Below, piece after piece: positions 8,245 through 60,497 of a stretch of 64,000 nt of DNA. The number at the start of each line of letters is the position of its first letter. The stretch's first letter is position 1. Source of the stretch: a virus; IMG/VR virus record IMGVR_UViG_3300022562_000124, positions 1-64,000 of that record. One strand, 5' to 3'. The notes below the pieces were generated by a model, which was not told where the DNA came from, ran no database searches, and was given only the letters and a program-made list of their open reading frames with translations. The translations under genes and the position numbers were made by a program.

Positions 8245-8421
8245 TTACCTACGCTTTTTGTTTTGTTCCTTAGTCCAATTTTTAAGTGCGAGGTCACAAA
8301 AGTCTCTAACTGTCTCAAGGACAGTCGCTTGATTATACTTTACATGTTCCGGTGTAGTCTTGGACTGTAAAGATTCAACCATTTGCTGTACTATGACAGG
8401 CACTGAATTAAATCTACTCAT
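8245..8421 (-). CDS. Small hypothetical protein between genes 55 and 47
   Basis: A 58-residue protein starting MSRFNSVPVIVQQM. The start at 8421 overlaps the end of gene 55 and is preceded by GGAG six bases upstream; an adjacent ATG at 8424 is possible. Longer versions reading further into gene 55 are unlikely. It is basic at the C-terminus (KNWTKEQNKKRR) and predicted helical. No family is recognised. Small genes between 55 and 47 are common in T4-like phages. Confidence 0.6.
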   Translation of the reverse strand: MSRFNSVPVIVQQMVESLQSKTTPEHVKYNQATVLETVRDFCDLALKNWTKEQNKKRR

Positions 8422-8959
8422 CATCTTCTCCAATAAATTTGTCGATTCCTTTCTTTCTCTTTTGACGTTTTGCGGCTTGCTTTGCATCGTACTTTTCAGT
8501 AAGGTCAGTAAGCTTGTCCATATCCATCGTAACCATAATAGCGTTAAAATGAGAAAGGTCATCTGGTGATAGCTCTACCAGCGTGTTCATGGTCACGGAG
8601 TTTTCCATGGCCTTGTATTTAATGTACGTCTGCTTTCTTTCCTTGTCGATTCGACGCAGGAACGCATAGTACATGATCTGAGTGAAATATGCAAACGGAT
8701 TCGTAGATTTTTCTGGATCAAAGTTGTGGAGGTATCTCAGGCAGTTTTCCACAGCGTCCCCGATCATTTCCTCACGATAGGTGTAGCCTATGAAGTTACG
8801 ATTGGTCGAAAGTCTATTGGCAATTAGCCAGATACATTCCCCAATATAGTTACTCGGTGTAGGCGTTTCAACTCCCTTTGCCTTGGCACTGTTATATTCG
8901 TTAATAAATTTCACCATTTCGGTGTACAACTTTTTGTTGTCAACGTAATGTTTTGTCAT
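8414..8959 (-). CDS. 55: Late-transcription sigma factor (gp55-like)
   Basis: Directs host RNA polymerase to the TATAAATA late promoters. The protein is 181 residues (T4 gp55: 185). The segment from about 80 to 125 (LHNFDPEKSTNPFAYFTQIMYYAFLRRI) matches the reduced sigma region 2 that recognises the -10-like box, and the C-terminus is charged. It needs the gp45 clamp, also encoded in this window, for full activity. Twelve matching late boxes upstream of structural genes in this window support the assignment. Confidence 0.92.
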   Translation of the reverse strand: MTKHYVDNKKLYTEMVKFINEYNSAKAKGVETPTPSNYIGECIWLIANRLSTNRNFIGYTYREEMIGDAVENCLRYLHNFDPEKSTNPFAYFTQIMYYAFLRRIDKERKQTYIKYKAMENSVTMNTLVELSPDDLSHFNAIMVTMDMDKLTDLTEKYDAKQAAKRQKRKKGIDKFIGEDDE

Positions 8960-11328: not shown

Positions 11329-11357
11329 ATTATATACTAATTAAGACTTTCAATCAA
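11329..11357 (-). promoter_or_regulatory. Sigma70-like promoter for the uvsY operon
   Basis: On the minus strand, TTGATT and TATAAT are separated by 17 bases, with the -10 about 30 bases upstream of the uvsY start. The -10 is a perfect consensus. It would let host RNA polymerase transcribe uvsY-uvsW-55 and genes beyond before late genes switch on. Confidence 0.6.
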
Positions 11358-11827
11358 GCATTAAATGGTTCAATATACCATCTTAGGAATCTAAATCTCG
11401 CTGTTGCTGTAGCATATTGGACTTCTTGTAGTGTAGAGTCCATGTCGATTCCTGATATTCCTACAGGGAATGCGTCTGTAAATCTTACATTGATATTTGC
11501 TTTTGATGAGCTATTCAGAATGATTACTGAACAGTCTGACAAAATATTCTGGTATTGTCCTAGTCTGTCTGGATAGCCAAGCTTTACCATCCAATCATAA
11601 ATTTCAAGATAATCCTTCATGTTTTCACCTACCATGAAGGTGACAGCAAACTCATCGTATTTGATATTTCCTGAGATAGGCATCTTGACAAACGGAGTTG
11701 GCAAGTCTACTGTTCCTAGCGTCATGCCGGGTAGGGATACCTTTTGAACACGAAATTCAAGCTCTGGCGTTTTGTCCAGTTTGAATTTGAAATTCAGCAA
11801 AGATAGGTTATTTTGGTTGAATGACAT
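11354..11827 (-). CDS. Tail tube-related structural protein
   Basis: A 157-residue protein with features of the T4 gp19 tail-tube fold family, such as VSLPGMTLGTVDLPTPFVKMP followed by a strand-rich middle and YLEIYDWMVKLGYPD. A true gp19 homologue is present at 19292-19873, so this is a paralogue that probably caps, starts or terminates the tube. In related phages the slot between 23 and uvsY is commonly occupied by the gene 3 tail completion protein; sequence alone does not let me choose between gp3-like and gp54-like roles. A late promoter box lies 57 bases upstream. Confidence 0.72.
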   Translation of the reverse strand: MSFNQNNLSLLNFKFKLDKTPELEFRVQKVSLPGMTLGTVDLPTPFVKMPISGNIKYDEFAVTFMVGENMKDYLEIYDWMVKLGYPDRLGQYQNILSDCSVIILNSSSKANINVRFTDAFPVGISGIDMDSTLQEVQYATATARFRFLRWYIEPFNA

Positions 11828-11834
11828 TTTGTGC

Positions 11835-11863
11835 TTGACTCACTTTGTTCGTATGGGTATAAT
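11835..11863 (+). promoter_or_regulatory. Near-consensus sigma70 promoter
   Basis: TTGACT (11835-11840) and TATAAT (11858-11863) are 17 bases apart, one base off perfect consensus. It lies about 42 bases upstream of the first of four small plus-strand genes and marks them as early genes read by unmodified host RNA polymerase. Confidence 0.8.
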
Positions 11864-11884
11864 CCATGTGTGGTGATAATATAG

Positions 11885-11892
11885 TATTTATA
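11885..11892 (-). promoter_or_regulatory. Late promoter box TATAAATA
   Basis: An exact match to the T4 late consensus on the minus strand, 57 bases upstream of the tube-related gene. It overlaps the leader of the divergent plus-strand operon, so late and early transcription cross here. Confidence 0.7.
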
Positions 11893-11905
11893 TAAGGACC
11901 AAATT

Positions 11906-12079
11906 ATGATTACAGATGGAGAATGGGTATGCAAACGATGCTTAGATTATCGTTCAGTGTGCCAACTATGTGAAGGTATGGGTCCAGAACTCATTCCAAC
12001 CCCTCAATGGATAAAAGATGAGGAACAGAGGTTGACAGACTCTATGAAACCGATTAAGATGTTCCCACTATACCACTAA
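11906..12079 (+). CDS. 57-residue two-CxxC zinc-finger protein
   Basis: A small gene with an AAGGA site 7-8 bases upstream of the ATG at 11906. The product (MITDGEWVCKRCLDYRSVCQ...) has CKRC and CQLC pairs near residues 9-12 and 19-22, which could bind one zinc ion, followed by an acidic/proline linker. It is first in a four-gene operon behind a strong sigma70 promoter, so it is probably made early, perhaps as a host-takeover factor; this is inference from position only. Confidence 0.6.
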   Translation: MITDGEWVCKRCLDYRSVCQLCEGMGPELIPTPQWIKDEEQRLTDSMKPIKMFPLYH

Positions 12080-12092
12080 CGGAGTATTTATT

Positions 12093-12428
12093 ATGAGTAA
12101 TTTTGACGATATTGACGAACTTTTCCAACAGGCTCTTGACGAAGCTGGTGTTTCTGATGCAGATATCATGCAGCTTGCTATGATGCTGGATGAAACTCTT
12201 GCCAAGAGCCTTCCCGCATCTATGGGATTTCCTGATTGGACTTACAAGGATTTACCACGAATGATCCCTTCTGTCAAGGACGAATTTATCGCTCTTGTCG
12301 GTGAAGAGAATATTAAGTGGATTACTTTTGCTAATTACGATGATGGTTCTGTTCGTGGACAGGTTCTACTGTCTCCGACTGCCATGGCTATTGTCGAAAA
12401 GACCGCAACTTCACCGAGTATGAACTAA
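12093..12428 (+). CDS. Hypothetical early protein 1
   Basis: A 111-residue acidic protein (MSNFDDIDELFQQALDEAG) with a GGAG site before its start. The N-terminal third looks helical and the rest mixed. No family recognised. Its stop overlaps the next start by one base, and it shares the upstream sigma70 promoter with its neighbours. Confidence 0.6.
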   Translation: MSNFDDIDELFQQALDEAGVSDADIMQLAMMLDETLAKSLPASMGFPDWTYKDLPRMIPSVKDEFIALVGEENIKWITFANYDDGSVRGQVLLSPTAMAIVEKTATSPSMN

Positions 12429-12772
12429 TGGATATTGAATATCGCTACGAAGGCTTTGACGAGCTAGATGAAGCTGGATTCAAGGTAAATTATATGTCCT
12501 TGGATAAAAAGAATGGTGTCATTCGTCCAGCTTTTCCATATGAACAGCTTGTTGAGGATGGTTTTCTTGGTAGGGGAAAGCGTGTGCGTTATCTTAATCG
12601 TAATGGTTATGACGCACATCGTGAATATGCTGCCAAGATGGGTATTACAGAAGGTATGATCCTTACTGTTGATACTTGCACTGTGGAAAGTTGGTCTTCT
12701 GATTACACTTTTTACGAAGTAGGCGGAAGCCACAACACTGTCATGTTTGAGGAAGTTGAAGATGGAGAATAA
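12428..12772 (+). CDS. Hypothetical early protein 2
   Basis: A 114-residue protein starting MDIEYRYEGFDELDEAGFKV. The C-terminal part (GMILTVDTCTVESWSSDYTFYEVGG) suggests a small beta-barrel. No family recognised. It overlaps the following gene by 11 bases. Confidence 0.6.
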   Translation: MDIEYRYEGFDELDEAGFKVNYMSLDKKNGVIRPAFPYEQLVEDGFLGRGKRVRYLNRNGYDAHREYAAKMGITEGMILTVDTCTVESWSSDYTFYEVGGSHNTVMFEEVEDGE

Positions 12773-13115
12773 AATTCGTTTTTCAAAATACGTCTATGAT
12801 GAAATCATGGCGGGTAACTTCCATCACTATGATGCCACAACCCTATCACGTTTCTATGATGGACATGTTGGAACAAAGGTGTTCAACCTGTACTGTGGTT
12901 ACAGGTGGTTTGGTCTAAAGAAGTTTACTACACTTTCAAGAATTGATATGGATACTGATAATTGGCGTACCTACACTAGGATCAATCTTCGTCCTGATGA
13001 AGAAGATATGCTTTGGTCTGTGTGGCCTACGGTAGAAAAGATTATCAATGAACGTAGATCAGAAGAAACAAAAAAGCACCTAGAGTATACAGAAAGAATG
13101 GCTTGGTGGCCATAA
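12762..13115 (+). CDS. Hypothetical early protein 3
   Basis: A 117-residue protein starting MENKIRFSKYVYDEIM at the ATG at 12762, with GAGG about nine bases upstream; a TTG start 15 bases earlier is less likely. It is rich in Trp, Tyr and Arg. No family recognised. It is the last gene of the plus-strand operon and converges on the gene 23 terminator. Confidence 0.6.
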   Translation: MENKIRFSKYVYDEIMAGNFHHYDATTLSRFYDGHVGTKVFNLYCGYRWFGLKKFTTLSRIDMDTDNWRTYTRINLRPDEEDMLWSVWPTVEKIINERRSEETKKHLEYTERMAWWP

Positions 13116-13119
13116 AAAA

Positions 13120-13145
13120 GGTGGGGAACCTTTCGATTCCCCACC
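13120..13145 (-). terminator. Strong terminator downstream of gene 23
   Basis: GGTGGGGAA and TTCCCCACC form a perfect 9-bp GC-rich stem with an 8-base loop. On the minus strand it lies 30 bases after the gene 23 stop and is followed by six T residues (13119-13114), the classic rho-independent layout. It ends the capsid transcript before it runs into the convergent early genes. Confidence 0.85.
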
Positions 13146-13174
13146 CAAGTCTGTAACAACTTTTATCGTTATGA

Positions 13175-14554
13175 TTACATCAAGTTGTTGACGATCACAC
13201 GACGATAGTATACGTTGCTGTCTTCTGCAAGACGACCTTCACCAACGTCACCGCCTTCAGCAAATGGGTTTGCTACCATGCCGTAACGAGTCTTGAAGCC
13301 AATCTTTGGCTGGAAGGTGTTAGGATCGACAGCACGTACCATCTGTAGTGGAACGTATGGGCAGTAGAAGAGACCAGCGTCAAATGCGCTTGAACCCTTG
13401 TAACCAACTACTAGGTAGTTAGCACCTGCATATGGGTCAATGTATACACGTAGGCGACCATTTAGAACACCTGCGAAGGTGTTGCCAGTATCGTCAACCT
13501 GTAGGTTGTTGCTGTTAAGAGCAGGAGCGTAGTCAAGGACACCAGCCATCTGTAGAGCAGACGCAACGTCTGAAGAACAGATAACGATGTTACCCTTACC
13601 GCGTCTGGTTCCCTTAGCGATTGCGTTAGCTTCACGCTCTAGCTGGAACATAAGACCCTTGAACTTTTCAACTGACCAACGACCATTTGAGTCGGTGTCT
13701 AGGTCGAAAATACCTGCATTGGTTGTGCCGGTTTCAGCACCACGCTTAGCAGTGATAACAACTGTACGGACAACTTCACGGTTGATATCAGCTAGAATTT
13801 CTGAAGACAGAATGTTTGAAAGTTCTGTCTCTGCATCAAGACCATGAATTGCCTTTAGGTCCTGTGCAAGTTCTAGTGAGTATTCAGCCTTTAGTGCACG
13901 GCTCTTAGCAGTGACACTAACCTTCTCAATGGAGAAAGCCATTTCTGGGAAGATTGAAGTTGTGGTTGAACCTAGACCTTCAGCAAGTGAAGTCTTGATA
14001 CCACCAGCAAAGTTGTATAGGTCATTTGTTGCGTTTGTGTTAGCAGCAGGATATGTGCCAATGTTATTAGCAGCGCCACCAACAGTGTTTGAAGCTGCGT
14101 AGCCAGCGTCAGTTGCAGATGCGTTTGCACCACCACGAGCAGAACGGCCAGTCTGAACTTCATTGTAGAAGGTTTCTGGACCAGTCTGGTTCTCGTAACG
14201 TGCTCTCATTGCGAAGATAAGTCCGGTTGGACCGGTCATTGGCTGAACGCCGCAGATATCGTAAGCAACGAGGTTTGGCATAGCACGACGAACTAGTGAA
14301 ATCAATACAGGGTCAAATGTATCGATAGCACCGGTTGAAGCGGTTGATGAAGATGCGCCCATTGAGTTGGTTGGAGCAGCTTCACCTAGGAAACCACCAC
14401 CCATTGAAGCACGTGCTTCACGGATAGCATTCTCAGTATTCTCAAGAATCTGAGCGGTAACAGCGCGCTTGTGGCTGTCCTTAATTTCTGGAAGGTCCTC
14501 ATGCTCAAGGATTGGCTTCCACTTGGTTTGAACTGTTTCGTCTAGATATGACAT
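13175..14554 (-). CDS. 23: Major capsid protein (gp23-like)
   Basis: Forms the hexameric shell of the head. The 459 residues are shorter than T4 gp23 (521) but typical of cyanophage-like members. The N-terminal ~65 residues are helical and probably the part removed by the gp21 protease, followed by the HK97-type core beginning around AIDTFDPVLISLVRRAMPNL. It has its own late box 43 bases upstream and a strong terminator downstream, as expected for the most abundant virion protein. Confidence 0.95.
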   Translation of the reverse strand: MSYLDETVQTKWKPILEHEDLPEIKDSHKRAVTAQILENTENAIREARASMGGGFLGEAAPTNSMGASSSTASTGAIDTFDPVLISLVRRAMPNLVAYDICGVQPMTGPTGLIFAMRARYENQTGPETFYNEVQTGRSARGGANASATDAGYAASNTVGGAANNIGTYPAANTNATNDLYNFAGGIKTSLAEGLGSTTTSIFPEMAFSIEKVSVTAKSRALKAEYSLELAQDLKAIHGLDAETELSNILSSEILADINREVVRTVVITAKRGAETGTTNAGIFDLDTDSNGRWSVEKFKGLMFQLEREANAIAKGTRRGKGNIVICSSDVASALQMAGVLDYAPALNSNNLQVDDTGNTFAGVLNGRLRVYIDPYAGANYLVVGYKGSSAFDAGLFYCPYVPLQMVRAVDPNTFQPKIGFKTRYGMVANPFAEGGDVGEGRLAEDSNVYYRRVIVNNLM

Positions 14555-14596: not shown

Positions 14597-14604
14597 TATT
14601 TATA
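14597..14604 (-). promoter_or_regulatory. Late promoter box TATAAATA upstream of gene 23
   Basis: Exact late consensus on the minus strand, 43 bases before the gene 23 start and just after the gene 22 stop, giving gene 23 a dedicated transcript that ends at 13120. Confidence 0.8.
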
Positions 14605-19291: not shown

Positions 19292-19873
19292 TTACTTAAT
19301 TGTGCCACCGGCAGTAGGACCTTCGACTACATAATAGTCATAGGCAAACTGAACTTGGAACGTTTCAATTTCATCGGTTCTGTTCCAATCTAGATCAATT
19401 GGTGAGATTTCGGTTGGAAATAGACCGACGAATTTATAGGTACGAATAATTGCAGGTGTTGTACCAGATGCGCCACCAGACTTTGCATACTGATAAACAT
19501 ATGCGTCTGTCTTGTAGTTATTTGGTGCTGATGAACCTGTAGTATTTACGTTACCTTCAAGTGAGTTAATCTTGTTGTGCCATGTCTCAAGACCTTGACG
19601 AATTTTAAAGTCTTCGTCATTAAGAATTGATACTGACCATGGTTGGAAGGTTCTATCACCAGCAACACGAATCTTACGACCAAAATATGGAACTTCGATT
19701 GCAGAAATTGTTGAACCGGGGATTGCGCTAGCCTGAATCATAAAGCTAGCGTCTCTTGAAATATCCAGACCATTAGGTACAATTGATGGTAGTGTCAATT
19801 TGACTTGGAAGAGCGTTGGACGCGCCCCTCCAAGCTTCAATGCACCTCTGATATCTTCTATTCTAAAAGCCAT
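19292..19873 (-). CDS. 19: Tail tube protein (gp19-like)
   Basis: Hexameric rings of this protein build the inner tail tube. The 193 residues (T4: 163) start with MAFRIEDIRGALKLGGARPTLF and contain the family pattern IQASAIPGSTISAIEVPYFGRKI and FVGLFPTEISPIDLDW. The extra length seems to lie in a Ser/Gly/Thr-rich loop around residues 105-135. It is flanked by 18 and 20 in T4 order and has an AATAAATA box 21 bases upstream. Confidence 0.93.
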   Translation of the reverse strand: MAFRIEDIRGALKLGGARPTLFQVKLTLPSIVPNGLDISRDASFMIQASAIPGSTISAIEVPYFGRKIRVAGDRTFQPWSVSILNDEDFKIRQGLETWHNKINSLEGNVNTTGSSAPNNYKTDAYVYQYAKSGGASGTTPAIIRTYKFVGLFPTEISPIDLDWNRTDEIETFQVQFAYDYYVVEGPTAGGTIK

Positions 19874-27104: not shown

Positions 27105-27114
27105 AAAGGTGATT

Positions 27115-28254
27115 ATGATGAAAGTTTGTATCATTGGCGATATTATTATTGACAACTACATTTATGGTACCGCAGAAAGGTTGTCGCCAGAGGCACCAAT
27201 CCCCATTGTAAAGTGTCAGTCAGCTACAGAAAAGTTGGGCGGCGCTGGTAATCTATACGAAAATCTATTGTCCCTTGGTGTTGACGTTGACTTGCTTGAT
27301 TTAAGTGAGCCACGATGTGTCAAGACACGTGTATTCTGTGACGGGCATTATGTTACCAGAATTGATGAAGACGAAATGACGGATGGTAGCAAGGTATTGG
27401 ATACCATTCGTGAGCTAGATTTTTCTGACTATGAGTATGTTATTCTCAGCGATTACGGTAAGGGTGTTCTCGAATACTCAGCATCTATTATCGAACACGT
27501 AAATCAATTTGGCTGTAAGGTAATTGTTGATCCTAAGAACCACTATTGGTTCTATGAAGGCGCATGGCTGGTTAAGCCAAACAGCGCAGAATTTACCAAG
27601 TATGAGTTTGACTCTTGGCAGGGCAATATTATCGTAACCGATTCTTCTAATGCTGTCACTGCCGATATCGATGGCAAGTTCTATCAGTCCTTTGTTGATA
27701 AGGTTGAAGTCAGCGATGTTACAGGAGCAGGAGATAGCTTCCTTGCTGCATTCGTATATGGCCTTACCATGGAATATGATTATCAGAAATGTCTTGACAT
27801 TGCAACTAAGGCGGCTACACATTCTGTCAAACATATTGGTACGTATACGCTAAAGCCGACTGATGTAGAGGAAATTGTTGTTTTCACAAATGGCTGCTTT
27901 GATATCCTTCATAGAGGCCATATAGAGTACCTAGAAGCGTCAAAGGCACTAGGGACTAGGCTGGTGATAGGATTGAACTCTGATGCTTCTGTAAAGCGTC
28001 TCAAGGGCGATTCTAGACCCATCCATACACAAGAGGACCGTAAGAAATCTTTGGAAGCTTTGTCCTGTGTCGATGAAGTCATAATTTTTGATGATGATAC
28101 ACCATATGATTTGATCAAGAGTCTCAGACCAAACATCATCACCAAAGGCGGCGACTACACAAAAGATAATGTTGTAGGAAATGATCTTGCACAGGTTGTC
28201 ATTTTGCCGTATAAGGAAGGTTATTCCACTACGGAAATCTTGGAGAAATTATGA
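27115..28254 (+). CDS. hldE: HldE-like bifunctional heptose kinase/adenylyltransferase
   Basis: In bacteria HldE phosphorylates heptose 7-phosphate at O1 and then joins AMP to make ADP-heptose. The N-terminal ~245 residues match the ribokinase-fold kinase: CIIGDIIIDNYIYGTAERLSPEAP near the start, GGAGNLYENL, and DVTGAGDSFLAAF near 203 with the catalytic Asp. The C-terminal ~125 residues match the nucleotidyltransferase: FTNGCFDILHRGHIEYL with the HxGH motif, and IITKGGDYTKDNVVG. At about 379 residues it is roughly 100 shorter than E. coli HldE (477), mostly in the kinase half. An AAGGTG site precedes ATGs at 27115 and 27118. It leads a coupled three-gene operon. Confidence 0.88.
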   Translation: MMKVCIIGDIIIDNYIYGTAERLSPEAPIPIVKCQSATEKLGGAGNLYENLLSLGVDVDLLDLSEPRCVKTRVFCDGHYVTRIDEDEMTDGSKVLDTIRELDFSDYEYVILSDYGKGVLEYSASIIEHVNQFGCKVIVDPKNHYWFYEGAWLVKPNSAEFTKYEFDSWQGNIIVTDSSNAVTADIDGKFYQSFVDKVEVSDVTGAGDSFLAAFVYGLTMEYDYQKCLDIATKAATHSVKHIGTYTLKPTDVEEIVVFTNGCFDILHRGHIEYLEASKALGTRLVIGLNSDASVKRLKGDSRPIHTQEDRKKSLEALSCVDEVIIFDDDTPYDLIKSLRPNIITKGGDYTKDNVVGNDLAQVVILPYKEGYSTTEILEKL

Positions 28255-28610
28255 CTAGACTAACTGGATATGTAGAAAAGGGTTGGGGCCATGAATTGAT
28301 ATGGGCAACCAACGACAAGTATTGTGGTAAGCTGATGCACTTTAAAAAGGGTGCAAAGTTCTCTATGCATTTTCATGCAGAGAAGGATGAGACATGGTAT
28401 GTCCAGAGCGGTGTGTTTATTGTAGAGACAATCGACACCAAGGACGCAAGTGTCCGCAAGATGACTCTGTTTGAAGGGAATGTACATCACAATCCGCCTC
28501 TTGTTCCACACAGACTCATCTGTGTCGAGGAAGGCACCATCATTGAAGTTTCTACACCAGACAGCGTAGAAGACAACTATCGTGTAATGCCGGGAGATTC
28601 ACAGAAATGA
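28251..28610 (+). CDS. Cupin-domain protein
   Basis: A 119-residue single cupin. KGWGHELIW, the metal-binding MHFHAEKDETWYVQSG (two His and a Glu) and PHRLICVEEGTIIEVSTP correspond to the two cupin motifs. The form resembles the isomerase domain of sugar-phosphate isomerases and mannose-1-phosphate guanylyltransferase C-termini. It overlaps hldE and the HldD-like gene by four bases each, so it should act in the same sugar pathway, perhaps as an isomerase or epimerase. No GmhA-type isomerase is visible, but cupins and GmhA are unrelated folds, so replacement is only a hypothesis. Confidence 0.8.
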   Translation: MTRLTGYVEKGWGHELIWATNDKYCGKLMHFKKGAKFSMHFHAEKDETWYVQSGVFIVETIDTKDASVRKMTLFEGNVHHNPPLVPHRLICVEEGTIIEVSTPDSVEDNYRVMPGDSQK

Positions 28611-29392
28611 TCGTGGTTACAGGATGCGAAGGATTCATTGGGAAGAACCTGATGAATTGTTTTGACAACGTGATGGGATTTGATATCACAGATTTTAATA
28701 CTGTGTTTGACATTAATCCTAAGCTTATCGATAGAGTTTATCACATGGGAGCACTGTCTTCCACCACAGAAACCGACTTCAATAAGATACATTATTATAA
28801 TGTGGACTATTCAATTCGCCTGTTTGAATGGTGCATTGAGCACGGCATTCCTGTGTCTTATGCCTCTTCTGCTTCTGTGTATGGAAACACCAACAATCAC
28901 ACAATCAATCCTCTTAACTACTATGCTTTGTCAAAGGCAACCGTAGACATGTGGGTAAAGATTAATAGGGACAGGTTTTCCAACATTCGTGGATATCGTT
29001 TCTATAACGTATATGGTCAGGGCGAAGAGCATAAGGGAAATCAGGCTTCTCCCGTTCAACAATTCACCAAGCAAGCTTTGGAAACTGGTAAGATTAAAAT
29101 TTTCGATAAATCAGGAAACGGTACTCGTGATTTTATCTGGGTTGGTGACGTATGCCGCATCATGATAAATGATGATAGAGAATCTGGTATCTATGATGTT
29201 GGTACAGGGAATCCCATATCGTTCTCAGATGTTGCTAAGCTGGTTGCAGACAAGTATGGCGCAAGCATCGAAGTAATACCATTCCCAGATCATCTTAAGA
29301 ATAAGTATCAGTTCTATACTTGCGCCAAGTATGAGCACGTTGATGAAACTTGTATTAGTGTAGAAGATTACCTATTAAGGCTCAACGATTAA
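28607..29392 (+). CDS. hldD: HldD-like ADP-heptose 6-epimerase (SDR family)
   Basis: Extended short-chain dehydrogenase. The NAD(P)-binding TGCEGFIGKN is at about 5-14 and the catalytic set is S88 with Y106xxxK110 (NYYALSK). Several segments are specific to HldD: MGALSSTTETD (E. coli EGACSSTTEWD), GYRFYNVYGQGEEHKGNQAS ([20 protein letters not shown]) and FPDHLKNKYQFYT (FPDKLKGRYQAFT). It is 261 residues against 310 for E. coli. It would convert ADP-D-glycero-D-manno-heptose to the L-glycero form. Its 3' end overlaps the convergent gene at 29375 by 18 bases. Confidence 0.85.
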   Translation: MIVVTGCEGFIGKNLMNCFDNVMGFDITDFNTVFDINPKLIDRVYHMGALSSTTETDFNKIHYYNVDYSIRLFEWCIEHGIPVSYASSASVYGNTNNHTINPLNYYALSKATVDMWVKINRDRFSNIRGYRFYNVYGQGEEHKGNQASPVQQFTKQALETGKIKIFDKSGNGTRDFIWVGDVCRIMINDDRESGIYDVGTGNPISFSDVAKLVADKYGASIEVIPFPDHLKNKYQFYTCAKYEHVDETCISVEDYLLRLND

Positions 29393-54007: not shown

Positions 54008-57000
54008 ATGAAAATTTGTTTTATTGATACCCTAGGTCTTTGCTATGACGGCACTACGCTAAGCAAGCGTGGCTTAGGTGGCTCAGAATCAGCCGTCATC
54101 CTCATGTCAAAAGAACTTGCCAAGATTGGGTTTTCTGTCACAGTTTATAATGACTGTACTTCGGATGATACTAAACCCGGAGTATATGATGGTGTAACCT
54201 ATCGTCCTTTAAAGTCTGTTGAAACGGATGCACCAGACTATGACGTAATGATTGGTTCCCGCTCTGTAGCTGCATTTGCACCCGCATACATGAAAGAGCG
54301 TTTTAAAACATTCTCATACGTTCCAGACTTTACCAGATTCCAGCAGAATATCAAGCACAAGATTTTGTGGATGCATGATACTTTCTGCGATGGTGACGAT
54401 TTAATTGAGCCGTTCCTACTTGACGGTTTAATCAATGAAGTTTTCGTTCTCTCTGACTTCCATCTTGACTATGTGACAAACTGTGATCATGGTAAGAAGC
54501 GCATGTTCGAAGTCCTGAAGCGTTATATGTTCCAGACTCGCAACGGCATTGGTGCGATGAATCCCGGCTGGATCGATATCAAGGACAAGGACCCCAATCT
54601 ATTTGTCTACAATTCATCCCTCACAAAGGGCATGGTCCCGCTTGTAAACGATATCTGGCCTAAAGTCAAGGAACAAGCACCAGACGCTAAGCTCATTGTG
54701 ATTGGCGGTTTCTATCGTTTTCGTGAAGGACATACACCCGATCAGCAGGAACTAGATTGGCGCGAAATGGTCAAGCGCAATGAAAACGCAGGGCTTGACA
54801 TTACATTCACTGGTGTTATACCACAGCAAGAAATTTCTGATATCCTTCGCAAGGCATCGTACATGATTTATCCATGTGCATTCCCTGAGACGTTTGGTAT
54901 CTCCACACTAGAAGCATTGGCGCACAACGTTCCTATCATTACCTGTAACTTTGGTGCAGAAGAAGAAACCGCTATTGACTCTGCGTCATATAAGATTCCG
55001 TTCCCTGTTGAACCTAATGGTCTATTCCCATGGGTAAACAAGGAAGATCAGGTTAACCGCTTCGTTGACATGACACTTCGCGCTTATTATGACAAGTATC
55101 TACATCAGCAAAAGATGTACGCATGTAATGCCGTCAAAGACATTTGTGGATGGAATTCTGTTGCCAAGCAGTGGAAGCAGCACCTATTCCATAAACTAGG
55201 CGAATTCTTGCCAGTTGACGAGTATCGTGAAGTTCAAAAGATTAATCATGATGTTCGTAAGACATTTGGTCGCCGCTTCACAAATCTTGAAGAGCTACAG
55301 GAACCAAGACAAAGACAAAAAGAAATTGCGATTCTGACAGCCGTGTATAATGCAGAAGATTATGTTGGTAAGTGTATTCGCTCTGTTGCTGCACAGGACT
55401 ATTACGATTATACAATGTACATCGTAAATGATGCATCTACGGATAACACCCTAAATGCAATTAAACAGACAATTAATTCTTTACCAGAAAAGATTCGTCA
55501 TAAGTTTGTTGTCATTAACAACGAAGAAAATATCGGTGCTGTAGCTAATCACTACAAGATCATCGATGAATATCTTGGTGAAGAGCAGTTCATCATGATC
55601 CTAGATGGTGATGATTGGCTTGTCAATGATCCAAACATTTTCCATAAGTACAACAATCTCTATCATGATGGTGCAGAGTTTACCTATGGGTCATGTTGGT
55701 CTCTTGCTGACAACATTCCTCTCATCGCTCAGCCATATCCGCCAGAGGTAAAGGAAGCACGTTCTTATCGTGACTACAAGTTTAATTGGAACATGCCATA
55801 TACTCACCTTCGCACTTTCCATGCTAAGCTTCTAAGAGGGCTTGACAGCAGTGATCTAATGGTGAATGGAGAATGGCCAAAGGCTGGTGGTGATACCGCA
55901 CTATTCTATCACTTGATCGAAAAGGCTGATCCCGATAAGATCGTATGTGTGCCAGATGTTGTTTATGTTTATAACGACAAGAATCCATTGAACGACTATA
56001 AGATCAATGGCGATGAGCAGACCAAGACAGCGAATGCTATTATGGGCAAGGGCAAGGCCGTGGAGAAGTTTTCTGTCATTGTGCCTACCATGTGGCGCTG
56101 TAAGGACGTATTCTCTAAGGCACTACAGAGCTATATCGATCATGACTTGGTAGATGAAATCATCATCATTAATAATGACAAGAAAGAAACACCAAACTGG
56201 CTAGGACTTGATCATCCTAAAATCAAGATGCTAACTCAGGAGCAAAACATTTACTGTAACCCTGCATGGAATCTTGGTGCGGAAGTTGCCGTAAACAATA
56301 AGCTATGTTTTGTCAACGATGATATTGAATTTGACACCAAGCTATTCGATAAGATTCATTCTCGTGTCATTCCAGAACTTGGTGTTCATGGTATGGTGAC
56401 AGGGGAAGAAAAGTTTGGCCATCCACAGTCAACGGACTTTTCCATCGACTTTACAAAGTGGTATTGGGGTGATAATATTCATGGATTTGGGCAGTTATTC
56501 TTTGTCCACAAGCACAATTGGATTCCAGTACCAGAAGGTCTAGACCTTTATTATGGTGACGATATGATATTCCATCAGCATCTTCATCGCGGTCTAGATA
56601 ATTACCTAATCTACAATCTTCGTTTCTATTCACCAATGGCACAGACAACTTCCGATCCTGCTATTCGTGGAAACAAGATTGAAACAGAACGTCCTATTTT
56701 TGACAAGTGGATGAGCGAAAACCAACTAATGAGTATTACTCAATGGTTGCGCCCAGAACCAACACCAGAGGAAGCAGTAGTACCAGTTATGGACCAAAGA
56801 GTAAAGCGCATTCTAATCGCAATTCCATGTAAGAATGATATCGAAGCTGATACATTTAAATCGATTTATGACCAGATCATTCCAGATGGTTATGAGACCG
56901 ATTTCCAGTACTTCTATGGTTATGCCGTAGATCAGGTTCGCAACTTGATTGCAGATTGGACAGTCAATGGTTATGATTACCTATTCGCTGTTGACCATGA

Positions 57001-58762
57001 CATTACCTTTGCCCCTGACACATTAGCAAAGCTTCTATCACATGACAAGCCTGTGGTTGGCGGTATCTATCGTCAAAGACTAGAACCACAGCGCCTTGAA
57101 GTTTACGATCATAACTTTAGAACCCTTGCTTATGAAGAACTACATGGTAAAGGATTAGTTGAGATTGGTGGTCTAGGGTTTGGCTGCGTTCTTGTCAAGA
57201 GAGAAGTATTTGCTGATATCGGATATCCACAATTTGTATATCATCAGGCACTTCGTCACGAACACACGTTCAGCGAGGATTTGGATTTCTGTTGCAAGGC
57301 ACGTGACAAAGGATACACCATCTGGTGCGATACGTCAATAGTATGTGGTCATATTGGCCGTCACACCTATCAGATTTCGTTACCCGCAAATTTTAATCAG
57401 CAGGTAGATGTAGTAGAAGAAAAACTACTTAAGATCGCGTCTGAAAAGCATCTACCTGAGGGTCTTGTAGAGTACACCAACAACCTTGACATTGACGCGC
57501 CCAAGGTTATCTATGATATCGGAGCGAATGCTTTAGAGTGGACCAGACTTGCCAAGAACAAGTGGCCAGAAGCTAAGGTGATTGCCTTCGAAGCCATGGA
57601 CGATTTCAATAAGCTTTATAAGCATTTTGATTTTGATAATTATGTTGGTGTTCTATCTGATCAGGACGGAAAGAAAGTCAAGTTCTATGAGAATCCTTTC
57701 CTTCCATGGGGTAACTCATACTACATGGAAAATGAAAACGAATCTCCACCCGGTTGTGAATTTAATGAAGGACATGCTAAGGTAAAGACTGCCCGTACAC
57801 TTGACGCTATTGTGGCTGAAAGAAACTGGCCTCTTCCTGACATGATCAAGATTGACGTTCAAGGTGCTGAGAAGGATATTTTGAAGGGCGCTGAGAACTG
57901 CCTAAAGAACTGCAACGATATCATCATTGAAATTCAGCATAAGGAATACAATAAAGGTGCTCCTATGCTAGATGAAATGTTTGATTATCTTGCTTCAATT
58001 GGATTCTATCTTGTGACCAATATTCATAAGAAAGAATGTGACGGAGATTACCATTTCAAAAAGATGGATAAGGTTCCTACAAAGGCATTCATTCTACACA
58101 CATCAAATTCAAAGTCAATGGAATATTCGCATACTGCTATTATGTCTTGTGAAAGAGTGGGGATTCAGCCCATATTGTTCAATGGTTTTGAAAATGAAAC
58201 ACCAGAAGAACTATCAAGGATATTTGGGTTTGAATTTGGTTCTGATATGAACCACGGCGCTGCTAGAGCTACCGCAGGGCATTTCAAGATGTGGAATATC
58301 ATTGCTGAGCTTGATGAACCGATCATCGTATTGGAGCATGATGCAATCATGTTACAGCGTATCATGCTGCCAATTCCAGATGGCAAGATCGTTGCTCTAG
58401 GATATAAGCTTCATGATCCTTTTGCCTACGATCATGTCATGGCAGGAGAACCCAAAGAGATAGTTGACATTAAGCGCCATTCTGGTGCACATGCATATGT
58501 CATTACACCAAAGACGGCAAGAATGCTTCTAGATGAGCTAAAGCGTGTAGGTGCACCTAGAGCCATTGACAACTATTACTTTATGAGAATAAACAATCCA
58601 GAGGACACTGAGTCAGAAGTTCCCCTTGCAATTATGGACCCGACACCAGCAATCGGATGGCTTCGTGAATCCACCATCTGGGAAGGATCGTGTGATATCA
58701 ATTATGACTTCTTGGATTCTTTTAAAAGAAACCACCATCCAAAACAGGAAGTCTCTCGTTAG
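54008..58762 (+). CDS. Giant multidomain glycosyltransferase/FkbM methyltransferase
   Basis: A 1,584-residue single reading frame containing five or six enzyme domains. About 1-410: GT4-type GT-B (LGGSESAVILMSKELA; CAFPETFGISTLEALA near 290). About 435-680: GT2 (AILTAVYNAEDYVG, LDGDDW near 533). About 690-910: second GT2-like domain (FSVIVPTMWRC, FVNDDIEF near 768). About 930-1130: third GT-A domain similar to the gene at 1815-2669 (VDHDITF near 995, EDLDFC near 1090). About 1165-1350: FkbM methyltransferase (VIYDIGANALEW, MIKIDVQGAEKDILK). About 1358-1560: GT25-like domain (KAFILHTSN, VLEHDAIML near 1441). It may assemble or decorate a whole glycan in one polypeptide. Its 3' end overlaps the convergent gene by 41 bases. 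Confidence 0.85.
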   Translation: MKICFIDTLGLCYDGTTLSKRGLGGSESAVILMSKELAKIGFSVTVYNDCTSDDTKPGVYDGVTYRPLKSVETDAPDYDVMIGSRSVAAFAPAYMKERFKTFSYVPDFTRFQQNIKHKILWMHDTFCDGDDLIEPFLLDGLINEVFVLSDFHLDYVTNCDHGKKRMFEVLKRYMFQTRNGIGAMNPGWIDIKDKDPNLFVYNSSLTKGMVPLVNDIWPKVKEQAPDAKLIVIGGFYRFREGHTPDQQELDWREMVKRNENAGLDITFTGVIPQQEISDILRKASYMIYPCAFPETFGISTLEALAHNVPIITCNFGAEEETAIDSASYKIPFPVEPNGLFPWVNKEDQVNRFVDMTLRAYYDKYLHQQKMYACNAVKDICGWNSVAKQWKQHLFHKLGEFLPVDEYREVQKINHDVRKTFGRRFTNLEELQEPRQRQKEIAILTAVYNAEDYVGKCIRSVAAQDYYDYTMYIVNDASTDNTLNAIKQTINSLPEKIRHKFVVINNEENIGAVANHYKIIDEYLGEEQFIMILDGDDWLVNDPNIFHKYNNLYHDGAEFTYGSCWSLADNIPLIAQPYPPEVKEARSYRDYKFNWNMPYTHLRTFHAKLLRGLDSSDLMVNGEWPKAGGDTALFYHLIEKADPDKIVCVPDVVYVYNDKNPLNDYKINGDEQTKTANAIMGKGKAVEKFSVIVPTMWRCKDVFSKALQSYIDHDLVDEIIIINNDKKETPNWLGLDHPKIKMLTQEQNIYCNPAWNLGAEVAVNNKLCFVNDDIEFDTKLFDKIHSRVIPELGVHGMVTGEEKFGHPQSTDFSIDFTKWYWGDNIHGFGQLFFVHKHNWIPVPEGLDLYYGDDMIFHQHLHRGLDNYLIYNLRFYSPMAQTTSDPAIRGNKIETERPIFDKWMSENQLMSITQWLRPEPTPEEAVVPVMDQRVKRILIAIPCKNDIEADTFKSIYDQIIPDGYETDFQYFYGYAVDQVRNLIADWTVNGYDYLFAVDHDITFAPDTLAKLLSHDKPVVGGIYRQRLEPQRLEVYDHNFRTLAYEELHGKGLVEIGGLGFGCVLVKREVFADIGYPQFVYHQALRHEHTFSEDLDFCCKARDKGYTIWCDTSIVCGHIGRHTYQISLPANFNQQVDVVEEKLLKIASEKHLPEGLVEYTNNLDIDAPKVIYDIGANALEWTRLAKNKWPEAKVIAFEAMDDFNKLYKHFDFDNYVGVLSDQDGKKVKFYENPFLPWGNSYYMENENESPPGCEFNEGHAKVKTARTLDAIVAERNWPLPDMIKIDVQGAEKDILKGAENCLKNCNDIIIEIQHKEYNKGAPMLDEMFDYLASIGFYLVTNIHKKECDGDYHFKKMDKVPTKAFILHTSNSKSMEYSHTAIMSCERVGIQPILFNGFENETPEELSRIFGFEFGSDMNHGAARATAGHFKMWNIIAELDEPIIVLEHDAIMLQRIMLPIPDGKIVALGYKLHDPFAYDHVMAGEPKEIVDIKRHSGAHAYVITPKTARMLLDELKRVGAPRAIDNYYFMRINNPEDTESEVPLAIMDPTPAIGWLRESTIWEGSCDINYDFLDSFKRNHHPKQEVSR

Positions 58763-59926: not shown

Positions 59927-59934
59927 TATTTATA
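59927..59934 (-). promoter_or_regulatory. Late promoter box TATAAATA before the small structural genes
   Basis: Exact late consensus on the minus strand, 32 bases before the 111-residue gene; it serves that gene and the following FGKTEDxL fibre gene. Confidence 0.75.
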
Positions 59935-59963
59935 ACTTGACAGGGAAAAGCATTCTGATATAA

Positions 59964-60497
59964 TCACTGTGTGGGTTTATGATACATTCCTTCTGGATGA
60001 CGATCTTGAATCTCATCCATGATATCCAGTAGTGCTTGGAAACATGCTCTAGCTTCATCGGTGATATCGTCTCTAGTACGGAATGTCTGAAGGAATGCAA
60101 GAGAAGATTTACGATCTTCCCATTCAAGATGTTCTGTAGGGAATCCTTCAAGTCTTCTTCTCATGATTTCACCACCCATTAAATGGGCACCAGTAAGAAC
60201 ATAGATTGCACCAGCAAGTGCCTTTTCATTATCTAGGGTCTTGACATATTCACTAGCAGCGGTAAAAGGTTCAATACCAAGATTCATGGCAACCATGTCT
60301 GATTCGAGTCTTTCTACTCGTCTTACATTATCTGGTACATCTTTGTCAATAACTAAATGAATTTGATGAAGAGCCTGAAGCCAAGCAGCATACCATACTC
60401 TTGGTGGGTTTCCTGTTGACATTGCTCCACCAACAGCATGTTGTTCACAGGCATGATGTAGATCACGTGTTTCTTCCCAAAGTGGTTTCTTTGCCAT
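59964..60497 (-). CDS. Heme oxygenase-like protein
   Basis: A 177-residue, all-helical protein. LHHACEQHAVGGAM near 13-26 supplies candidate proximal His residues, and AIYVLTGAHLMGGEIMRRRL near 97-116 resembles the heme oxygenase distal helix with its conserved Gly-Gly. The whole length is shorter than typical heme oxygenases (about 220-240). It might cleave heme to biliverdin or be a non-enzymatic relative. It sits among fibre genes, an unusual place for such an enzyme. Confidence 0.65.
   Translation of the reverse strand: MAKKPLWEETRDLHHACEQHAVGGAMSTGNPPRVWYAAWLQALHQIHLVIDKDVPDNVRRVERLESDMVAMNLGIEPFTAASEYVKTLDNEKALAGAIYVLTGAHLMGGEIMRRRLEGFPTEHLEWEDRKSSLAFLQTFRTRDDITDEARACFQALLDIMDEIQDRHPEGMYHKPTQ

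Follow-up and report, generated by a model that had tools for sequence, protein, structure and literature searches.

Why do four small genes with a promoter of host type lie on the plus strand of a T4-like phage, between two genes that are both read from the minus strand? The window, i.e., the whole stretch of 64,000 nucleotides analyzed here, belongs to a virus record of 79.7 kb (IMGVR_UViG_3300022562_000124) from a T4-like phage known only from metagenome contigs; a twin contig (IMGVR_UViG_3300015263_000107) was 100% identical to the window over the stretches compared. A sequence-only reading had described the four genes as an operon shielded by the gene 23 terminator and had taken them for early host-takeover factors. 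The genes, their host-type promoter, their opposite orientation, and the terminator shield were borne out, while the takeover function was not; that reading also held nothing on a gp3 late promoter facing the operon, on the shuffling of its genes between relatives, or on the slot being usually empty. We consider it probable that the genes form a modular accessory early cassette in a plastic gp23-gp3 junction, running opposite to its neighbors, transcribed from a host-type promoter before the late genes, and interlocked with the late promoter of gp3.

Genes and neighbors of the cassette

The minus-strand genes of the window follow the order gp21, gp22, gp23, gp3, uvsY, and uvsW, with gp21 and gp22 assigned by position against Sinorhizobium phage phiM12. 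The operon had been placed between gene 23 and a tube-like gene, both on the minus strand, and this agreed with our analysis, in which the latter could be named by synteny: it encodes a tail-tube family protein between gp23 and uvsY, the position held by gp3 in phiM12 and DLP6 (PMC5349666). The synteny with these two phages ruled out gp19 as its identity, and a separate gp19-sized gene is present at 19292-19873.

The four plus-strand genes (Table 1) were supported by codon usage for ORFs 2 to 4 and by conservation for ORFs 1 and 4. Codon usage was gene-like in the correct frame only (+0.25, +0.30, and +0.13 for ORFs 2, 3, and 4, respectively), with all remaining frames negative; ORF 1 is below the scorable length. 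Among homologues of the products of genes 1 and 4 (P1 and P4), dN was well below dS in most pairs, suggesting that these proteins are mostly under purifying selection. Shine-Dalgarno-like stretches are found upstream of genes 1, 2, and 4, and gene 3 overlaps the stop of gene 2. For gene 4, we chose the ATG at 12762, which corresponds to the starts of the homologues, instead of the mechanical TTG at 12747.

Table 1. Features in and around the cassette, in window coordinates
Feature	Position	Strand	Basis or remark
gp55, late sigma factor	8414-8959		near cassette
gp3, head-proximal tail-tube tip / tail completion	11354-11827	-	phrog_45, E=1.7e-34
sigma70-type promoter TTGACT-N17-TATAAT	11835-11863	+	predicted start ~11870; conserved in L006, L007, L008, L094, L100
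gp3 late promoter TATAAATA	11885-11892	-	predicted start ~11879; faces early promoter; invariant in relatives
Gene 1 (P1), 57 aa, CxxC-x6-CxxC	11906-12079	+	homologues at same slot in L006, L007, L008, L094
Gene 2 (P2), 111 aa, acidic, pI 4.1	12093-12428	+	codon usage
Gene 3 (P3), 114 aa, acidic	12428-12772	+	phrog_8472 match
Gene 4 (P4), 117 aa	12762-13115	+	conserved in L006, L007, L100
Gene 23 intrinsic terminator	13119-13146	-	4 nt past the last stop of the cassette
Gene 23, major capsid protein	13175-14554	-	phrog_138, E=3e-170
Gene 23 late promoter TATAAATA	14597-14604	-	motif scan

Gene exchange at the gp23-gp3 junction

The junctions compared comprised 80 gp23 loci among the viral-contig matches listed, together with phiM12, DLP6, and the loci that carry a homologue of gene 1. 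Among the matches listed, gp3 was located in 71 junctions. The spacer was empty in 49 of these 71 (84 to 276 bp), generally reading gp23 stop, intrinsic terminator, NATAAATA, and gp3, and it was larger in 22, which mostly held same-strand genes, e.g., the DLP6 exonuclease. The core order gp23-gp3-uvsY-uvsW was kept although the inserts varied. Extra ORFs were also seen around gp3-uvsY in L008 (1323-2003 and 81-755); by eye they are homing-endonuclease-like, and they suggest a second insertion spot at gp3-uvsY.

Opposite-strand cassettes of the window type were present in five further contigs among the matches listed (L006, L007, L008, L094, and L100). Their genes run F-P4-P1 in L006 and L007, F-X-P4 in L100, and Y-dNT-P1 in L008 and L094, compared to P1-P2-P3-P4 in the window; dNT, a 5'-3' deoxyribonucleotidase in the L008 cassette, was the sole recognizable cassette gene in a relative. 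The cassette genes are, in other words, shuffled inside a fixed promoter/terminator frame, as observed at one place of the genome. All relatives with cassettes of this type belong to one clade, with gp23 approximately 81 to 83% identical to that of the window, and, since L008 and L094 are near-identical, the nested cases amount to about five independent ones, all within this clade. In one branch of T4-like phages, accessory genes have a defined landing site in this junction, and, with the interlocked promoter fixed and the genes exchangeable, reading the gp23-gp3 gap is a simple way to collect such genes from uncultured relatives.

In T4, the rnlB-24.2-24.3-hoc-inh block lies on the opposite strand between gene 24 and uvsW. 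Like the cassette, it consists of opposite-strand accessory genes in the matching stretch, from the capsid genes to uvsW/uvsY, and its upstream edge bears a TATAAATA that serves the rightward genes (L011 6522). Unlike the cassette, it holds unrelated and mostly larger genes, including hoc and inh, is not a takeover module, and had no strong TTGACA/TATAAT at its upstream edge in a simple scan. In phiM12, opposite-strand small unknown genes (SmphiM12_056 to _064) likewise lie between gp3 and gp23, but no recognizable genes are shared with the window and the cassette is independent. The phiM12 signals also differ, with the late promoter CATAAATA standing 24 nt from gp3 and TTGAC-N17-CTAT further out, i.e., back-to-back and not nested.

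In T4-like phages, novel ORFs are usually early, and they "almost invariably" run with their neighbors (PMC1524935), a tendency rather than a strict definition, from which the cassette departs by lying on the plus strand with gp23 and gp3 on the minus strand. As summarized in PMC4177764, Arbiol et al. 2010 described plastic (hyperplastic) regions and mobile regulatory cassettes in T4-type phages, the latter being an early promoter and a stem-loop that move as a unit to different genome places. By that summary, plastic regions resemble our cassette in that small ORFs, lineage-specific and served by early promoters of a host-like kind, are inserted between conserved modules, at regulatory signals that are conserved too. 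In the window, lineage-specific ORFs do lie between core genes of kept order, with a host-like promoter upstream. Unlike the plastic regions as summarized there, the cassette is opposite to the flanking late genes and its promoter interlocks with that of a late gene. Placing early accessory genes in plastic junctions is a known T4-type habit; what is unusual is this orientation, together with an early/late promoter pair that is kept while the genes are exchanged.

The facing early and late promoters

The proposed promoter TTGACT-N17-TATAAT matched the sigma70 consensus at 11 of 12 positions and was the top site within 9-17 kb. Sites with at least 11/12 matches numbered 8 in the 64-kb window, compared to 2.4 ± 1.4 in a Markov simulation. 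The match by itself is only moderately significant above chance across the window, and the real evidence for the promoter is, therefore, its conservation in relatives, where the -35 box of L008 and L094 differs (TTTACA, spacer 16). Exact copies of the T4-type late octamer TATAAATA numbered 13 in the window, compared to an expectation of 1.6 for each strand; every copy is on the minus strand, and nearly all are immediately upstream of minus-strand genes; no late motif reading toward the cassette was present on the plus strand of the window. The gp3 copy separates the early promoter from gene 1.

This promoter pair was found in all six cassettes of the window type, i.e., in the window and in the five contigs named above. 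In each, a TTGACT or TTTACA box lies 16 to 17 nt upstream of TATAAT, and TATTTATA, the late octamer reversed, lies 21 to 29 nt downstream. In a DNA alignment of five rows (window, L006, L007, L008, and L100), TATAAT and TATTTATA were the only long invariant blocks; the L006 row begins below its -35 box, which is present and was seen outside the alignment. The late octamer lies 57 to 72 nt from the gp3 ATG in the window, L006, L007, L008, and L094, compared to a median of 16.5 nt (4 to 37) in the 42 empty junctions where it was found and 24 nt in phiM12, which places the early promoter within the gp3 leader. With late starts numbered as in T4 (octamer at -13 to -6; PMC2988020), the predicted early and late starts overlap by 10 to 18 nt across the cassettes, and by approximately 10 nt in the window. 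No similar pair appeared in 60 simulated windows.

We propose that host RNA polymerase would read the cassette from TTGACT-N17-TATAAT ahead of the late genes. Since the predicted starts overlap, the early and late promoters should not be occupiable simultaneously; gp55-polymerase at the gp3 late promoter would compete with the early promoter for the shared DNA, and late gp3 transcription, crossing the early promoter, should help to silence the cassette. The firing of gp3 by late RNA polymerase across the cassette promoter is then the probable shut-off of the cassette, an occlusion we infer from motif spacing only. The promoter pair and the terminator stay fixed while the gene content is exchanged between relatives, and the products would be small accessory early proteins.

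At the other end, the gene 23 terminator lies where the sequence-only reading had it guarding the cassette, and a terminator after gene 23 was present in 6/6 genomes described in PMC1524935. It would block late gp23 transcription from entering the cassette, which sits exactly between this terminator and gp3, so that gp23 late transcription would not run antisense through it. Read on the plus strand of the window, the gene 23 hairpin has no U-tract; a terminator of the cassette itself is, therefore, not obvious, and early transcripts may extend into gp23 as antisense RNA. The hairpin as a terminator for the cassette too was for this reason unsupported in the window, and such a role is possible in L006 and L007, where a T-run comes a few bases later.

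The most serious alternative, falling just short of an even chance in our estimation, is that the interlocking has no regulatory meaning: a single insertion by gp3 would have left the promoter in the leader by happenstance, and other mechanisms would end cassette transcription. The nested cases all belong to one clade, the signals of the phiM12 cassette are separate and back-to-back, and the interlock could be mere compact packing. This account fits less well with the finding that both motifs and their near-constant spacing (21 to 29 nt) are kept across divergent members while the surrounding bases and genes change. The strongest form of our own reading, in which the late switch-on of gp3 physically turns off a swappable cassette and selection keeps this hard-wired early/late toggle as genes are exchanged, is put forward tentatively, and we lean slightly against it. 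If promoter interference is true, the arrangement would be a minimal temporal switch needing no dedicated repressor.

Late octamers also lie close to other plus-strand features of the window. Three plus-strand sugar-nucleotide-type genes at 27109-29392 (HldE-like, cysteine dioxygenase-like, and a nucleotide-sugar epimerase), opposite to the late genes, begin 5 bp from a minus-strand TATAAATA (27104-27097), making this a second opposite-strand block by a late promoter. At 59927-59964, a perfect TTGACA-N16-TATAAT on the plus strand starts 3 bp away from the TATAAATA on the minus strand at 59934-59927 and points antisense into a minus-strand ORF (59964-60497); it could give an antisense RNA or belong to an unrecognized plus-strand unit.

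Products and timing of the cassette

The first gene had been described as encoding a 57-residue protein with two CxxC motifs, and this was accurate: C9, C12, C19, and C22 were invariant across six sequences, including that of Rhizobium phage RHph_I1_18, where the distant homologue is an unannotated small ORF (L095 3995-4195). The product is probably a small zinc-binding protein. PHD-finger hits to the CxxC motif were weak cysteine-motif matches under the cut-off and were rejected. In a first search against annotated phage genes, genes 1, 2, and 4 had no match; profiles of genes 1 and 4 gave no trustworthy match in PDB, Pfam, PHROGs, NCBIfam, or PADLOC, and P1, P2, and P4 fell into no known family of these databases. 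Gene 2 had no relatives in viral contigs besides the 100% identical twin contig. The C-terminal half of the gene 3 product (residues 47-111) matched positions 25-89 of the 89-position profile of phrog_8472, which is uncharacterized (E=5.6e-12), and phages infecting several unrelated hosts carry this domain as well; the single-sequence structure prediction had a pLDDT of 44. For gene 4, the predicted structure (pLDDT 82) comprises a helix, a five-stranded sheet, and two C-terminal helices, and a fold search with it returned no significant match.

A host-takeover operon, in which the small proteins would bind and inhibit host machinery right after infection and the two-CxxC protein would be a zinc-dependent inhibitor, seems to us somewhat unlikely. 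Small size, the conserved host-type promoter, lineage specificity, and the conserved zinc-type motif are in line with it, and it has been suggested that some novel ORFs of T4-like phages harm the host and may help to commandeer it (PMC1524935). However, no protein of known function was recognized, and none of the four had a takeover, defense, or counter-defense match in PHROGs, Pfam, NCBIfam, PADLOC, or PDB. The same slot carries a deoxyribonucleotidase in a relative, and the T4 block carries hoc, inh, and rnlB. The turnover of cassette gene content argues that no single takeover function is maintained, and a strong host-type promoter with small genes does not by itself establish one.

Early timing of the accessory cassette is plausible, given the lack of a plus-strand late motif in the window, the conserved host-type promoter, and the usual earliness of novel T4-like ORFs. 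We regard a middle or constitutive operon as quite unlikely. A host-type early promoter and a constitutive one look alike in sequence, and telling early from middle timing would depend on the sigma70 preference of the host and on whether the phage has MotA/AsiA; in RB49-type phages that lack MotA, middle timing has been attributed to an overlap of early with late promoters (PMC2984593). RB49 and S-PM2 share with the cassette a physical overlap of early with late promoter motifs, but in those phages the two motifs point the same way and drive one gene (PMC2984593), whereas those of the window face each other and serve different genes, and none of its late motifs is directed at the cassette. A literature search found no precedent for face-to-face promoter overlap. 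In four contigs (L030, L029, L033, and L084), a sigma70-like promoter on the same strand encloses the late octamer of gp3 (in L030, for example, TTGACATTATAAATAGATATGGTATAAT), giving gp3 a composite early/late promoter.

That the region is non-coding, with chance ORFs and a fortuitous promoter, as the unmatched genes 1, 2, and 4 of the first search might have suggested, is refuted by codon usage, the Shine-Dalgarno-like sites, dN mostly below dS, the PHROG match of gene 3, and the conserved promoter.

Two further regions by the tail genes were noted. A plus-strand ORF of 1584 aa (54008-58762), opposite to tail genes and with no plus-strand late motif, fuses glycosyltransferase, methyltransferase, and other domains. 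Another stretch beside tail genes (L096, 64.1-66.5 kb of the record) has no long ORFs and repetitive low-complexity frames, and is possibly a collagen-like fiber gene with frame problems.
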